A stretch of DNA of 28,546 nt from Promethearchaeota archaeon (GTDB lineage Archaea; Asgardarchaeota; Lokiarchaeia; Sigynarchaeales; SOKP01): the NCBI GenBank assembly GCA_030620005.1, contig JAUXAJ010000027.1:1-28546 (forward strand), written 5' to 3'. Positions 15,083-24,701 of this stretch are shown here, in pieces. The notes under the pieces were generated by a model. It ran no database searches. It was not told the DNA's origin and saw only the letters and a list, made by a program, of their open reading frames with translations. The first letter of the stretch is position 1. Every line of letters starts with the position of its first letter. Made by a program: the position numbers and the translations under genes.

Positions 15083-17071
15083 ATGCTCCCTAATAAAGAA
15101 ATAATCGTTTTTGACGCGAACTTTTTTATTTGTTGTTTTGCTATAAAAGCAAGAAATTTACTTTCTAATTTAAGCAATGCTGCGAAAGATTTGGAATATG
15201 ACTATTATATTTCAGAAGTAGTATTTAATGAAGTGAAAGCCCCTCACACGTTTAAAGATAAATTTAAAACCATTATTAAAGTCATGGATATTCCGCTCCA
15301 AGAAATTGAAGAAATTAAAAAAGAGTTAAGTAGACATAACATTCGATTTCCTGCTCAAGACCCTGATTTATCTTTGATAGCTCTTGGTAAAAAATTATTG
15401 AATGAACATGAGAATAATTCAGTACATCTTGTAATAGATGATTTCAAGCTAGCCAAGAATACGAACTTATTATATAAAGGAAAAATAAATATTTTATCCC
15501 TTTCTAGTTTCCTCTTAAAAATCCAAAGAACCGCAACCAAGGCACAAATGAGGAATTATTTTAAAAATCTCTGGAAACGCTCATTAAATTATACGCTCAG
15601 CTACATGATTGAACGCTCAAAGATTTATCCTGCAGAAGAGAAAATACAGTGGCTCATCGAAAGGGCTGTAAGTGTGACTGAAAACAGTATTTTAACTGCC
15701 GATTCGCGTCTGATGGAAGATAAAACCGTAAAATTTCAAGTAGGTGCGTCAAAATTCGCAGATGAAATAGAGATTGCTGAAAAATACATTGAAAATCAAG
15801 ATCTTCCCGCATCTGAAGAAGAGAAAATATCTAGTATTATTAACTTTCTTGAAAATTTAAGAATTTCTCGAGAATATGTTAAGAGCGCAAGAGATGCGAT
15901 TATTAAAAATGACAGCAAAAAAGCAGTTCAATATTTAAAGAAAGGTAATGGATTTTTAATTTCACTACTACAAATAGCTTCTGGTCGCTTAACAATAGTG
16001 AAAGATTACGAGATTGTAGAAGCGATAATTTGTCAAGAAATCTCAAAAATGGAATTCTTACGGGCATTTTTGTTGGTTTCTTTAGGTCGCATAAATACAG
16101 CGATTGATTCGTTAGAAAGAGCTGCGCTTTTTTCGACAATCATTCACAATTATCAGACATGCTTGACATTAAACTATTTGAAAGCGTTAATACAACTTTT
16201 TCACGGACTCTATAAATCGGCAATAATGCAGTATTCTTTTACGGAACAATTAGCCGATCTCTATAACGATGATAAGTTAAAGTTAAAGTGTCTTATCGGG
16301 ACAGCGATTGCGCGTTACATCCAAAATAATAATCGAGAAAGTGCGATGAACATAATGGAAGAAATTGCTAAAATGGATTTTGAAAAAAACTTTTTAAACG
16401 CCGTTATTGTATATAGTGAGCTAGGAGATTACTTCTTGGCGTTAGGCCATTCGCAAATTGCTGCCAATCTCTACAACCAAGCATTGGAAATTTCCATCGA
16501 TTACAAGCTCTCTTTTAAGTCTGAAATATTAATTGAAAAATTGAAGAGAGCATATATAGCTACAGTGTTAAACGGTTATTCTGCGGAAGTCATGGTTGAT
16601 AGGTTAGATGTTTTATTAGATAAGGCTTATTCTGTTAAGGATGTAGAAAAATACAACGAGCAAATTAAAAAAATCTCGAGCTTTAACAAGTTATTTTACA
16701 CAAAATTTCCATACATTTCTGGAAAGAGAAAAGTTATCCCTTATGCTAAACTTCCTAAGGAACTCAAGGATGTGCATTTAGAAGTCGTAAAATTTGAAAA
16801 GATAGACGAAAACCAAAATCAAATTCTTTTCATCGTCTCCCACTATGAATTAGGTTTATTAGGAATAAAACTAAAAACAGATCAAGCTATTCATGGCATA
16901 GCCGAAAATTATTCATTAAAATTTAAACCCACATATAAAGTAAAAATTTACGAGCCCGAAGAAGAATTGAAAAATACATTATTAATTCGAGCAATCATCG
17001 AAATTACAGCAAAAAACCAATGTGACATAGTATATACGCTCCCCTCATTCTTTAAACAATTAAATCTTTAA
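15083..17071 (+). CDS. PIN-domain nuclease-like protein fused to a helical (TPR-like) repeat region
   Basis: A 662-residue protein. Residues 1-150 have the PIN-domain pattern: IIVFDANFF with Asp11, SEVVFNEV with Glu45/Glu50, AQDPDLSLIA with Asp93/Asp95 and LVIDDFKLA with Asp119/Asp120. These are the acidic residues that bind metal in PIN nucleases, so the site looks complete. From about residue 240 to 520 are paired amphipathic helices with TPR-like features (KAVQYLKKGN, INTAIDSLERAAL, GDYFLALGHSQIAANLYNQALEI). The last ~90 residues form a small alpha/beta domain (LFIVSHYELGLLGIKLKTDQ ... IVYTLPSFFKQLNL) that is duplicated downstream. A role in RNA cleavage or quality control is inferred. The fusion differs from short VapC toxins and no antitoxin is adjacent. 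Confidence 0.8.
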   Translation: MLPNKEIIVFDANFFICCFAIKARNLLSNLSNAAKDLEYDYYISEVVFNEVKAPHTFKDKFKTIIKVMDIPLQEIEEIKKELSRHNIRFPAQDPDLSLIALGKKLLNEHENNSVHLVIDDFKLAKNTNLLYKGKINILSLSSFLLKIQRTATKAQMRNYFKNLWKRSLNYTLSYMIERSKIYPAEEKIQWLIERAVSVTENSILTADSRLMEDKTVKFQVGASKFADEIEIAEKYIENQDLPASEEEKISSIINFLENLRISREYVKSARDAIIKNDSKKAVQYLKKGNGFLISLLQIASGRLTIVKDYEIVEAIICQEISKMEFLRAFLLVSLGRINTAIDSLERAALFSTIIHNYQTCLTLNYLKALIQLFHGLYKSAIMQYSFTEQLADLYNDDKLKLKCLIGTAIARYIQNNNRESAMNIMEEIAKMDFEKNFLNAVIVYSELGDYFLALGHSQIAANLYNQALEISIDYKLSFKSEILIEKLKRAYIATVLNGYSAEVMVDRLDVLLDKAYSVKDVEKYNEQIKKISSFNKLFYTKFPYISGKRKVIPYAKLPKELKDVHLEVVKFEKIDENQNQILFIVSHYELGLLGIKLKTDQAIHGIAENYSLKFKPTYKVKIYEPEEELKNTLLIRAIIEITAKNQCDIVYTLPSFFKQLNL

Positions 17072-17244: not shown

Positions 17245-17871
17245 TTAAAGACTTGAGATGTTAACTTCAATAGCTCCTTGAAATTTCTTTTGAATTTCTA
17301 ATTGTAATCTCTCACTTAACCCAGGTAATACTGCTGACCCATACACCACGATGTTATTACATAATCCGCGCCTAAAATTAACTTCACATTGGTTTAACAC
17401 GCTCATAATCGCTCCATCTAAACCTTCACTATCTTTCCCTACTAAGAGTGGTTTGAAAATACATTCTGATGCCATATAACTTGATTCTCTTGTAATTCCC
17501 GTTCCATTTTCTCCTTTAATGCGGGCTGATTCCTTATCTGGATCTATTGCTACATACACATATCTATTCTTTTCTCTTATTAGTTGTCTCTTGGTATAAC
17601 CACTCCCTAAGCCCCTCTCTTGTTGGAGTAATCTTTTATAGTATTTCGTTATAACTTCCCCTGTAATTTCAAAATTTATTATTGCGTGATTCACGACAAA
17701 TGTTTCGAATATAGGAACGATGTATGACTCTTTTTCTCCCAAACTTACCATTAAACCAGTTTTTTTGCCCGTATCGGATAATTTCTTACTTGCTTCCTTC
17801 ACATAATTTTGAATTGCACTCATAAAAATTTGCCCCACAAATAAAGGTAAATAACTAGAAGAACTAGACAT
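17245..17871 (-). CDS. Actin-like protein fragment covering only subdomains 3 and 4 ('half-actin')
   Basis: A 208-residue protein aligning with the middle of actin, about residues 124-330: [21 protein letters not shown] with actin [39 protein letters not shown] with [30 protein letters not shown] with [30 protein letters not shown] with YANTVLSGGTTMYPGIADR. Neither the N-terminal phosphate-1 loop nor the C-terminal WIGG...W region is present, and no trace of either is seen in the flanking bases. Actin catalytic Asp154 and His161 are Ser and Tyr here, so ATP hydrolysis is unlikely. ATG start with TAA just before it in frame; serine-rich N-terminus. It is either a divergent domain-only actin-related protein or a truncated relic. 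It lies antisense between two copies of the 3' end of the PIN gene. Confidence 0.65.
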   Translation of the reverse strand: [208 protein letters not shown]

Positions 17872-17934
17872 TTATAAGTTTCAAGTTTTTATACACCTTT
17901 CTAAAAATTATTTTCTTTCTTTTTTCAACTCTTT

Positions 17935-18158
17935 AATTAGGTTTATTAGGAATAAAACTAAAAACGGATGAAGCTATTCATGGCATAGCCGAAAATTATT
18001 CATTAAAATTTAAACCCACATGTAAAGTAAAAATTTACGAGCCCAAAGAAGAAAAAAAACAAAATCTTTTAATACGAGCGATAATCGAAGTCACCGCAAA
18101 AGATCAACGTGAAATCGTCTATACTTTACCTTCCTTCTTCAAGGCTCTCAATCTTTAA
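17935..18158 (+). pseudogene. Duplicated 3' end of the PIN-domain gene, truncated copy
   Basis: A 224-base segment matching 16848-17071 with no length change. It encodes 73 residues (LGLLGIKLKTDEAIHGIAEN ... PSFFKALNL, then stop) and starts directly after an in-frame TAA with no start codon. The first ~115 bases differ from the parent at only about four positions. The remainder is much more diverged, largely at synonymous or conservative sites, so this is an old paralogue whose 5' part of the segment was recently homogenised or recombined. Confidence 0.8.
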
Positions 18159-18168
18159 AAAGATTAGT

Positions 18169-18377: not shown

Positions 18378-18714
18378 TTAGAATTTTCTTTCCTTTTTAG
18401 CTCGTTGGCTAATTTGATGAGAATGAACGGCGCAGCTTACACCTTTAGAAAATTATTCTATAAGTTTATGCAGTAATACTTCTTATTTTGCCCGCTCAAG
18501 ATTATAGTCCCGCTCTTTTTCAGTTCTCCGAACATCCTACCATCTACTAACGATGTTCGGCGAGTAACTGCTTTTGCTTTGCTTATTGCAGCTTAAACGA
18601 CAAGTTTTTTGCTCTTGCAACAAGGCGTCCGCATTTAGTGCACTGAACCTTTCCATAATTTCCTTTACTGCTTCCCGTCTTTCCCCCAGATCGTCTTTTC
18701 TTTGGAATCGTCAT
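18378..18714 (-). CDS. rps26e: Ribosomal protein S26e (eS26), coding sequence interrupted by two short insertions
   Basis: Read on minus from ATG at 18714. Segment 1 (18714-18607, 36 codons) gives MTIPKKRRSGGKTG ... VQCTKCGRLVARAK. Segment 2 (18589-18467, 41 codons) gives AISKAKAVTRRTSLVDGRMF ... KKYYCI. Segment 3 (18437-18378, 19 codons plus TAA) gives SCAVHSHQISQRAKKERKF. Joined, this is a 96-residue S26e of normal archaeal length with both zinc-ligand pairs, CTKC and CISC, and the AVH...RAKKERK end typical of the family. Unjoined, the first frame stops after 43 residues. GGAGG five bases before the ATG is one of the best Shine-Dalgarno sites in the window. S26e is a small-subunit protein at the mRNA exit channel in eukaryotes and many archaea. 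The gene follows trmY and the phosphatidyltransferase gene on the same strand. Broken gene, spliced or bypassed message, and sequence error remain possible. Confidence 0.8.
18438..18466 (-). other. Insertion 2 in rps26e (29 nt)
   Basis: Lies inside the second zinc-knuckle sequence. On minus it begins AACTTATAG and ends GGTGTA, between ATA (Ile) and AGC (Ser). Without it the frame gives YYCISCAVH; with it the frame stops at TAG within three codons. Exact edges can slide by up to three bases because TAA occurs at both edges. A weak inner stem (CTTATAG with CTAAAGG) is possible. Confidence 0.6.
18590..18606 (-). other. Insertion 1 in rps26e (17 nt)
   Basis: On minus: AACTTGTCGTTTAAGCT, between AAA (Lys36) and GCA (Ala) of the S26e frame. 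Without it the product reads VARAKAI, matching VPKDKAI of eukaryotic S26e. Read in frame it leads to a TAA a few codons on. A 14-nt version ending before GCT is also frame-correct and would add one Ala. The insert can fold AAAC/GTTT around a small loop. Confidence 0.6.
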
Positions 18715-21682: not shown

Positions 21683-23662
21683 TTAATCGGAGGCTAAATC
21701 TCCTAAAAAGCCTGCCCCTATCTTGTTAAATTCTTCGGCGTAATTCACACCGTATTTTTCTCCCATTTCACCATATATTATCTTAATTAATAAATTTACA
21801 CGAATCGCGTTTGGAACATCTTCCTCGAGTAATTCAACATGTAAGCGATTTGCACGAGCAATCAATTTATTTTGATAAAACCAGTTTTTTAAGACGGTTT
21901 TATGCTCGCAAAGTGCCTTTATTTTTTCTTCAACGAAATCCGTGATGTCCACGTGGAAATTTAAAACTGTAGGATTTCGGGCAAATAAATATCTCTCTCC
22001 AACCATGTGAATTTCTAAGTCTTCTTCTAAATGCTCCGGATAAAACAATTCAACCGCACTTTGCCAGCAAGCCTCGTTTACTGCCCTTGCGGTGATGATG
22101 TGGTCCATGTTCTCTTCATCGGTTCCGTTCAAATCAAAAGAAACCACTAGATCAGGCTTGTATTTTCTCATCAGATAAATAAGCTTGCCTCGTAATTCTA
22201 AATAATCAACTCCCGCTAAGACATCCGTTGGATAATCCAAATGAATTGTTTCTTCAGCACCTAAAGCCTTATATGCTTTTTCAACTTCTTTTCGGTTCCT
22301 CTTTATTCCTTGTTCTTTCGTGATTCCTATGCAATCCGCATAATCATCTGTTATTCTCACGCATATCAACTTATTTCCTTCGCGTGATAACTTAATGAGC
22401 GTGCCTCCTGCCCAAATCGATAAATCGTCTGCGTGGGGGCCGATTCCCATGACTGTCTTGTATACAAATAGTTCCTTCACGGTTTTTCTTACTACTTCGG
22501 CTGCTTCTGAGCCAACGGATTCCGTTTCATGGCCTATAAATCTTCCATTTTCAATGTCATCAACCCAAACTTGAGGTTTCAATCTATATTGATCTAAAGG
22601 AATGAAATAGCCAATGGAATCGTTAGAATTACTTATGAACATTATTTGTTTGTCTGCATTCTCTTCCATGATTTTAGAAAATAATCCTGGAAACGGTTCC
22701 CCGGGTACATGCATCATGTGTAAATTTCCAATTCTTAACTTACTGATTGTAGTCATGGCATGATTATCTTCTAGTTCTCTTTCAAAAACTCTAATTTTGA
22801 ACAAAAGTTGAAAATCGGGATTCTCCAATTTAATTTTAACTCTACGATGTCTTATTTCAATGGGCGCTTCTTCTACTTTAATTGCTTTTGGAAAGATGTT
22901 TTTTATTTCAGAAAATACTTCGTTGGCAAATAATTCCATTTTATCAAAACCTTGCTCGCAATAAATCGGTGATTGGGAGCCACATAGACCTAACCCAAAT
23001 AAAGAGACTCCACCGAACTCATTCTCCATCATTTCGCATACAAGCCCCGGATAATCCCCTGAAATAGACACGTCTTCTCTAGTAGTCATTTCAGGTTGAG
23101 CTGTAAATGTCCATAGACACCCAATTAATTTCTCATTAGCCAAGAATTTTAATACAATTAGATCACCACATGTGTCCTTTTCGTCACGATAATTTTCGAT
23201 GAGTTTTTCTAAGTTAGATTTCACAACATATAATTCAACGTCTTCAAGATTTTGTTCAGCTTCCACCACGGCCTCAACAATTCTCTCAATTAAAAAGAAT
23301 TGATACTTCCAGTTAATACCGCTCATCCCTATTAGGGCCCCCCATAATCCCATGGTGTCTGGTCCAGCGTGCGTGTGAGTCGCAAATACATAGATCTCTC
23401 TTTCTTTATATCCGTATGCTTTTAATCTATCTCTAACTCTATCCACGAAATCCGCTAGTAAACCGATACATTCTACTGAAACTAAAGCAACTTTTGTATT
23501 TCCATCAGCAATAACCATTGCTCGAGCATGTATGTGATCGTGCACGTCCTTGAATTTTGGCGCCATCATGGTCAAATATCCCGCAACTTGAACAGCTCCA
23601 ACATCAGAAGGAGGAGTTATATTCTTTTTAGATGCTCCACATTTTAAAATTGTTATTTTAAT
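21683..23662 (-). CDS. Neutral ceramidase-like hydrolase fused to a PIG-L (LmbE) deacetylase domain
   Basis: Two enzyme domains in one frame. The N-terminal ~370 residues follow the neutral/alkaline ceramidase family: an ITPP segment near the start, VHDHIHARAMVI, VALVSVECIGL, the zinc-type motif FATHTHAGPD, and later HVPGEPFPGLFSK and SNDSIGYFIP. The C-terminal ~255 residues are a PIG-L deacetylase: GIGPHADDLSIWAGGTL (metal-binding PHADD) and GTDEENMDHIITARAV (the distal His motif). Together they suggest hydrolysis of an amide or N-acetyl group on a lipid or sugar. The first usual start is TTG at 23575, but the frame is open to 23662 and encodes the expected family N-terminus (LKCGASKKNITPP ... 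VAGY), so the TTG start looks too short. Upstream, ATG AAA ATG is separated from this part by an in-frame TGA. Confidence 0.8.
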   Translation of the reverse strand: MKITILKCGASKKNITPPSDVGAVQVAGYLTMMAPKFKDVHDHIHARAMVIADGNTKVALVSVECIGLLADFVDRVRDRLKAYGYKEREIYVFATHTHAGPDTMGLWGALIGMSGINWKYQFFLIERIVEAVVEAEQNLEDVELYVVKSNLEKLIENYRDEKDTCGDLIVLKFLANEKLIGCLWTFTAQPEMTTREDVSISGDYPGLVCEMMENEFGGVSLFGLGLCGSQSPIYCEQGFDKMELFANEVFSEIKNIFPKAIKVEEAPIEIRHRRVKIKLENPDFQLLFKIRVFERELEDNHAMTTISKLRIGNLHMMHVPGEPFPGLFSKIMEENADKQIMFISNSNDSIGYFIPLDQYRLKPQVWVDDIENGRFIGHETESVGSEAAEVVRKTVKELFVYKTVMGIGPHADDLSIWAGGTLIKLSREGNKLICVRITDDYADCIGITKEQGIKRNRKEVEKAYKALGAEETIHLDYPTDVLAGVDYLELRGKLIYLMRKYKPDLVVSFDLNGTDEENMDHIITARAVNEACWQSAVELFYPEHLEEDLEIHMVGERYLFARNPTVLNFHVDITDFVEEKIKALCEHKTVLKNWFYQNKLIARANRLHVELLEEDVPNAIRVNLLIKIIYGEMGEKYGVNYAEEFNKIGAGFLGDLASD

Positions 23663-24161: not shown

Positions 24162-24701
24162 ATGCCCCATAAAATTCCAATAAAAAAAAATTTCTTTAAA
24201 ATAGTAATTTGTGGGGATGGGGCCGTTGGAAAAACCACCATTAGTAAAAAACTAACAGGACGCTTGAGTTCGGAAGAAAAAATAGAAATGACACCTGGTA
24301 TTGATTTTCACGGTTTAATGTTGGAAAAGGATGACAAGAAAATATTTTGTCAATTGTGGGACCTTGGAGGCCAACATCATTTTCGAGATTTTCAAGACAA
24401 TTTTTTTGAAAGTGCTTCTATAGTAATTTTTGTTTGTTCTGTAGATAGATTTCAAACTTTGGAAAATATTGAATCATGGCTAAAATTTCTTCCTAAAGAA
24501 AAAATTAATAAATCATATCTCGTGGCAAACAAAATAGATTTTCAAGATCGGTCAGTAAAAACAGAATCTATAATTAAATTAGCAAAAGATTTAAATCTAG
24601 AATATTACGAAGTGTCTGCAAGGACTGGAGATGGTTTCGATAAATTTGAGAGCAAGTTAATTGAGGCAATCTACAAAATATATGATGATTTAAATAAATG
24701 A
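24162..24701 (+). CDS. Ras-like small GTPase (Asgard Ras/Rab-type)
   Basis: A 179-residue small GTPase with every G motif: G1 GDGAVGKTT (residues 18-26), G2 Thr44 in EMTPGIDFHG, G3 WDLGGQ (66-71), G4 NKID (123-126) and G5 SARTG (152-156). The Gln of G3 is the catalytic glutamine. The core most resembles the Ras/Rab/Rag-like GTPases that are abundant in Asgard genomes. The C-terminus ends IYKIYDDLNK with no cysteine, so there is no prenylation signal. A basic N-terminal extension (KIPIKKNFF) might contact membranes. No GEF or GAP-like gene is adjacent; the nearest candidate regulatory-type protein is at 27791. ATG start. Cellular role unknown. Confidence 0.92.
   Translation: MPHKIPIKKNFFKIVICGDGAVGKTTISKKLTGRLSSEEKIEMTPGIDFHGLMLEKDDKKIFCQLWDLGGQHHFRDFQDNFFESASIVIFVCSVDRFQTLENIESWLKFLPKEKINKSYLVANKIDFQDRSVKTESIIKLAKDLNLEYYEVSARTGDGFDKFESKLIEAIYKIYDDLNK

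Follow-up and report, generated by a model that had tools for sequence, protein, structure and literature searches.

Candidate tRNA-type mini-introns in the ribosomal protein gene rps26e and in other coding genes of Lokiarchaeia

The interrupted rps26e gene and its relatives

The window, by which we mean the whole stretch of 28,546 nucleotides analysed here, contains one S26e gene (minus strand, 18714-18378) that is interrupted by two 29-nt inserts and spread over three segments in three different frames. How can a gene in this state provide a ribosomal protein? A preliminary description of the locus had joined the three segments into a full S26e, and this was borne out with the PF01283 profile (cut-off 27 bits): the joined protein reaches 52.9 bits, against 25.1 bits for the first piece by itself, and the middle piece gives no match. 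The same description had given the first insert as 17 nt, the second as 29 nt and the protein as 96 residues. Intact S26e relatives are gapless at VARSKAKAVTRR and at YYCISCAVH, and therefore both inserts are 29 nt long. A 17-nt first junction leaves four surplus residues (AISK) without a counterpart in these relatives; removals of 29 nt restore both VARS and YYCISC and yield a normal protein of 92 residues. Thus, the contention that each junction falls exactly where the family alignment needs it holds for the second junction, but not for the first, which the relatives place at R34^S35 (^ marks an insert or cut site throughout). Exon 1 (18614..18714) runs from an ATG and encodes MTIPKKRRSGG...CGRLVA, followed by two bases of the Arg34 codon. 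The putative intron 1 occupies 18613-18585, or equivalently 18612-18584. Exon 2 (18466..18584) completes Arg34 and continues with SKAKAVTRR...YYCI and the first base of Ser74. The putative intron 2, which has a hairpin inside, was placed at 18465-18437, chosen among equivalent placements by the BHB geometry discussed below. Exon 3 (18378..18436) holds the rest of Ser74, then CAVHSHQISQRAKKERKF and the stop codon.

Database relatives of the window S26e, where named, come mostly from Promethearchaeota, including Lokiarchaeia. Of 111 proteins retrieved, 52 were read, and the counts of breaks rest on those 52. Six frames end at site 1, after VAR or VPR (P0104, P0105, P0106, P0108, P0109, P0110), and P0088-P0090 read through insert 1 in another frame into SKAKAV; these three and part of the six may share their genes of origin. 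At site 2, four frames end (P0073, P0079, P0081, P0082), with P0111 at most one codon away. Since breaks at these sites recur in further database entries, those in the window are more than chance, and the comparison with S26e genes of relatives, which had been proposed as a check, returned the same two sites with junction 1 shifted. Assembly or sequencing error had been left open as well, and might be suspected with source data of metagenome type. However, the break sites are shared by entries of several origins, the corresponding insert of one relative sits on a 1.28-Mb contig, and the inserts follow a structural rule; we give such an error next to no probability and consider it excluded in practice. 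Elsewhere in the protein database, possible third and fourth insert sites are indicated by the S26e frames P0092, broken after ELKK, and P0107, divergent beyond CGRL. Frames that start inside S26e (P0083-P0086, P0095-P0097, P0099-P0101) more likely reflect start-codon effects than introns.

One of the broken frames, P0106, corresponds to locus L043 on the 1.28-Mb contig, in the genome of Lokiarchaeota LW40_45 (hereafter G001). This gene carries a homologous 29-nt insert 1 at the same place as the window, and insert 2 is absent. No second S26e locus was found in the 4.6 Mb of G001, where further matches (E >= 0.04) are at chance level. Among 87 exon codons compared between the window and G001, 44 are identical, 32 synonymous and 11 non-synonymous, giving dN 0.086, dS 1.36 and dN/dS 0.06 over the joined frame, with synonymous sites near saturation. 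The joined S26e frame is constrained, though both genes are interrupted. An insert common to the two genes at such a dS also excludes in practice the very young insertions that had been listed among the explanations. One may still argue that rps26e is a decaying pseudogene and that a working S26e lies elsewhere: its frame is broken as it stands, and the single-copy count comes from G001, so that the window's own genome could hold a second copy. Against this, strong constraint acts between two interrupted genes, the only S26e locus of G001 is itself interrupted, and the inserts are equal in length at shared sites. Decay is thus very improbable, as was anticipated when plain pseudogenisation was called unattractive, and the shared break sites, the G001 insert 1 and the dN/dS together speak against both decay and assembly error.

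A search of 227 genomes of the phylum gave an S26e match in 196, and among the matches listed only that of G001 is split; the match in G013 holds a single stop. In 13 of the 83 genomes of the class no S26e match was obtained, and a second try gave no credible one. Another 158 loci were scanned (703 kb in all, though many of them overlap or share a genome), and an insert was seen in the G001 S26e only; a stop-plus-gap row in L014 was judged to be a region upstream of a gene. The viral contigs searched contained no S26e relative. In the window itself, the scans for inserts (split and stop-plus-gap) found none beyond the two in S26e.

Geometry of the S26e inserts

What kind of element could be removed so precisely? 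Group I and group II introns are catalytic RNAs that need more than 29 nt, and they were set aside, the inserts being too short and the window giving no Rfam match. In archaeal pre-tRNAs, the end of the exon pairs with the end of the intron over 4 bp, a 3-nt bulge lies 3' of the helix on each strand, and EndA cleaves behind the second base of each bulge. This cut position, between bulge bases 2 and 3, agrees with PMC2738675. At insert 1 of the window, the exon-end UGCA (18619-18616) forms a 4-bp helix with the intron-end UGCA (18590-18587), and the bulges are AG^A and AU^A. At insert 2, the 4-bp helix consists of GCAU (18471-18468) and GUGU (18442-18439), with bulges AA^A and AA^G. The G001 insert 1 has the helix UGCA/UGUA, and the inner helix of insert 1 differs on both sides between the two genes (GC..GC in the window vs. 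GUG..CAC in G001). A cut after bulge base 2 restores the frame at 29 nt for both window inserts and for the G001 insert 1. The outer exon-exon helix of the strict BHB motif was not found at the window sites, where it would amount to 1 bp and 0 bp. A relaxed BHB form that does without the outer helix occurs in tRNAs.

The explanation that we hold to be very likely is that rps26e is an intact gene with two 29-nt BHB (tRNA-type) introns, cut by EndA and joined by RtcB, and that related Lokiarchaeia carry mini-introns in other mRNAs. Mini-intron removal was among the readings previously left open; it is now the favoured one, and the type of intron can be named. At each site of the pre-mRNA, 4 bp would form between the 3' end of the upstream exon and the 3' end of the intron, and the interior of the intron would fold back on itself. 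EndA would cut the two 3-nt bulges, each after its second base, and RtcB would join the exons, from which the normal 92-residue S26e would be made. Transcription, cutting, joining and the enzymes responsible are what we infer from sequence.

Inserts in other genes and genomes

Homology scans between 1.2 Mb each of G001 and a Lokiarchaeal chromosome (G042), taken with a motif scan, gave eight G001 inserts of 29-32 nt besides S26e, in seven genes. The split scan (381 queries) returned eight rows, four of them for a 29-nt insert in an acyl-CoA ligase gene near 877.2k; rows 749155, 1072222 and 1023060 were not accepted as inserts. The filtered scan, with 321 G042 genes matched in G001 (E < 1e-20), returned three stop-plus-gap sites. 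Stops next to alignment gaps marked three inserts of 30 nt, namely a second ligase insert (862.9k), a thioredoxin insert (1128.4k) and an old-yellow-enzyme (OYE) insert (165.9k). Paralogs revealed a 30-nt thiolase insert (188.7k) and a 31-nt insert inside RCSI^CKWI near 752.4k, and the same thiolase gene holds a second insert of 29 nt. A BHB motif search made without homology was used only to propose the 32-nt insert in carbon monoxide dehydrogenase (CODH; 396.8k), which was then backed by protein continuity, the APEY^MEQKA frame being continuous after removal. CODH alone was retained from the eight motif candidates inspected; those at 842245, 627007, 269824, 391706, 916911, 1015000 and 597599, as we read them, had no support across the join, lay at an operon boundary or were in the wrong frame. 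Matches at 70452 and 643167/643182 in G001 and at 726161 in G042 were judged to be due to chance or to boundaries. As a positive control, the S26e inserts came up again in the scan, with 29 nt in G001 and at the second site of the window.

The mini-inserts are not confined to G001, since they were also found in rtcB of the genome G026 (29 nt, at GGVGY^DINCGVRL, positions 1473-1501 of L285) and in a zinc-ribbon gene of G042 (32 nt, at KIYAK^KYICRNCG, from a weak reverse-split row with E 6e-3). In G001 and G042, rtcB is a single open frame. No stop-plus-gap site came out of the reverse scan, in which 380 G001 genes were run against G042; G042 was dropped as an insert-free control once the zinc-ribbon insert had been found. 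A masked rerun listed S26e, the 877k ligase and the new 752.4k insert, and missed other known sites, which makes the insert scans lower bounds. These similar inserts in other genes of relatives suggest that Lokiarchaea splice messenger RNAs.

A BHB fit with restored frame was obtained for 10 of the 13 inserts. Thioredoxin has three of the four pairs, one thiolase insert (a) fits weakly (p 0.25), and the 862k ligase has no fit, its best BHB being 26 nt long and out of frame and its best 30-nt placement reaching p 0.068. All four central pairs are found in frame at the 877k ligase, OYE, the other thiolase insert (b), CODH, 752.4k, the G026 rtcB and the G042 zinc-ribbon gene. The in-frame cut is the top local placement at the 877k ligase, OYE, rtcB and the zinc-ribbon gene; higher-scoring, mostly frame-breaking placements exist at both window inserts, the G001 insert 1, thioredoxin and thiolase b. 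The outer helix, absent or reduced to 1 bp in S26e, is present at the 877k ligase, OYE and CODH. As a null, we used 20,000 random coding positions of equal length with 4 nt of play. The window inserts gave p values of 0.017 and 0.033, and the ten homology-defined sites (0.017, 0.033, 0.0005, 0.068, 0.003, 0.024, 0.0001, 0.25, 0.00005 and 0.0003) gave a Fisher P of 7.9e-15, in a set from which CODH was excluded as a motif-derived site, along with 752.4k and the G001 insert 1, a homologue of insert 1 of the window. Hairpin energy alone, at eight sites, gave P 1e-4. The BHB motif by itself is common, and no more so in G001 than in G042 or in a Markov sequence, and the case for BHB introns therefore rests on homology together with geometry.

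Programmed ribosome bypassing, another of the readings offered earlier, would leave the inserts in the RNA and have ribosomes hop over the structured 29-32-nt gaps. Bypassing is known from T4 gene 60 and the byp elements of yeast mitochondria, and relies on matched take-off and landing codons. The Lokiarchaeial inserts resemble such gaps in being short, structured, situated inside coding genes and often provided with stops, and the codons do agree at the 877k ligase (GAT/GAC) and at the 862k ligase (ATT/ATT), the latter being the site left unexplained by BHB. At the S26e sites, however, take-off and landing codons differ (AGA/ATA in the window and AGA/AAA in G001 at site 1; ATA/GTA at site 2), and bypassing is for this reason disfavoured. 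Neither does it predict the BHB geometry that 10 of 13 inserts nevertheless have, and we regard it as unlikely. Turning back to BHB introns, we find it probable that tRNA-type splicing of mRNA is general in Lokiarchaeia, with mini-introns of about 29-32 nt in many protein genes, including two in the essential rps26e and one in rtcB. The closest relatives of eukaryotes would then have evolved split genes along a path of their own, without recourse to group II introns or a spliceosome.

Splicing enzymes, known systems and neighbouring features

RtcB is present in G001; it was not found in G029, an assembly with gaps. There are two EndA-family genes each in G042, G029 and G026, and one in G001. 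The sole G001 member found (C9:770478; L282, L317) lacks a histidine that we take to be the catalytic one, and is apparently the non-catalytic paralog. A catalytic EndA was not found in G001 in a search with the other paralog, in an assembly with gaps, and this is a hole in the argument. It could speak for another form of removal at the RNA level, by an unknown nuclease or by self-cleavage, that merely resembles BHB splicing, as could the 2 of 13 inserts that fit BHB poorly or not at all. Yet most sites regain their frame when cut by the rule of a known enzyme, G001 has RtcB and long tRNA genes, and the three other genomes have two EndA paralogs each, so that we consider such a process quite unlikely.

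The tRNA matches in G001 number 16, with 13 at full length. Nine of these 13 measure 93-138 nt, and six of the nine 102-106 nt, which is about 29-33 nt beyond a 73-nt tRNA. In 1.2 Mb of G001, ARAGORN reported 0 tRNAs without introns and three when introns were allowed; the corresponding numbers for G042 are 6 and 15. One reading of the match at G001:C6:509134-509235 places a 30-nt BHB intron at an unusual site, the T loop. Intron-rich tRNAs with introns at unusual positions are described for other Asgard lineages in PMC11291895.

The introns of archaeal tRNAs, which that source describes as dense in some Asgard lineages, have the BHB geometry in common with the inserts described here, and the length excess of the G001 tRNA genes is of the same size as the mRNA inserts; tRNA introns, however, lie in tRNAs, whereas the Lokiarchaeial inserts interrupt reading frames. 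Within a protein gene, a BHB-like intron is on record for the cbf5 pre-mRNA of Crenarchaeota, with a relaxed motif at many sites and lineage-wise gain and loss (Yokobori 2009, PMC2738675). Like the mini-inserts, the cbf5 intron is BHB-like, lies in a coding gene and is cut between bulge bases 2 and 3. It concerns one gene and one site, whereas in Lokiarchaeia several genes are affected, one of them with two introns, at about 29-32 nt and including a ribosomal protein gene. The inserts of the window are not of the cbf5 type, which lies in cbf5 at the catalytic Asp codon; their gene is rps26e (PF01283). HVO_1309 of Haloferax has a BHB site at which EndA processes the mRNA in vivo and in vitro, according to PMC7714728, but that site lies in the 5' UTR, whereas the Lokiarchaeial inserts lie within the coding frame. 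The same paper, from 2020, names cbf5 as the only described archaeal coding-region case besides its own 5' UTR example, and the available parts of PMC13149111 and PMC12397907 add no Asgard case. Among open PubMed Central titles and abstract starts, preprints excluded, we found no report of coding-region mini-introns of Asgard archaea or Lokiarchaeia.

Lokiarchaeia belong to the archaeal group closest to eukaryotes. If the inserts are indeed BHB introns, they would show that the tRNA route allows introns to spread among coding genes near the point where eukaryotes arose, mini-introns would explain broken gene models in Asgard genomes, and intron gain, loss and cost would be open to study without a spliceosome. 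If S26e needs splicing, the ribosome supply would hang on EndA and RtcB. An intron in rtcB, if true, would make the circuit self-dependent, with the ligase needing its own product for joining.

The gene order around the window S26e is the usual one of the family: many Lokiarchaeial loci have in common S26e, the neighbouring CDP-alcohol phosphatidyltransferase gene and the large gene at 15083-17071. Upstream of the rps26e start lies GGAGGT (18721-18716). Translation may begin at an ATT (18708-18706) instead of the ATG at 18714, since the spacing of this ATT from GGAGGT equals that of the ATG in G001. Lokiarchaeial-type S26e loci found by pattern (L001-L050) have ATT at the start position in 28 of 47 cases, ATG in 11, TTG in seven and ATA in one. 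A conserved AUU start in S26e, if it is one, would be unusual and could be regulatory. Between the large gene and rps26e, a truncated actin frame (17245-17871; PF00022) lies within 17245-18160, and the stretch at about 17904-18160 and the 3' end of the 15083-17071 gene both resemble one and the same part of the loci of relatives; the region 17245-18160 may represent a partial duplication with an insertion. The window further encodes a Ras-family small GTPase (24162-24701) and, at 21683-23575, a protein that combines a PIG-L deacetylase domain with an N-terminal part resembling ceramidase.
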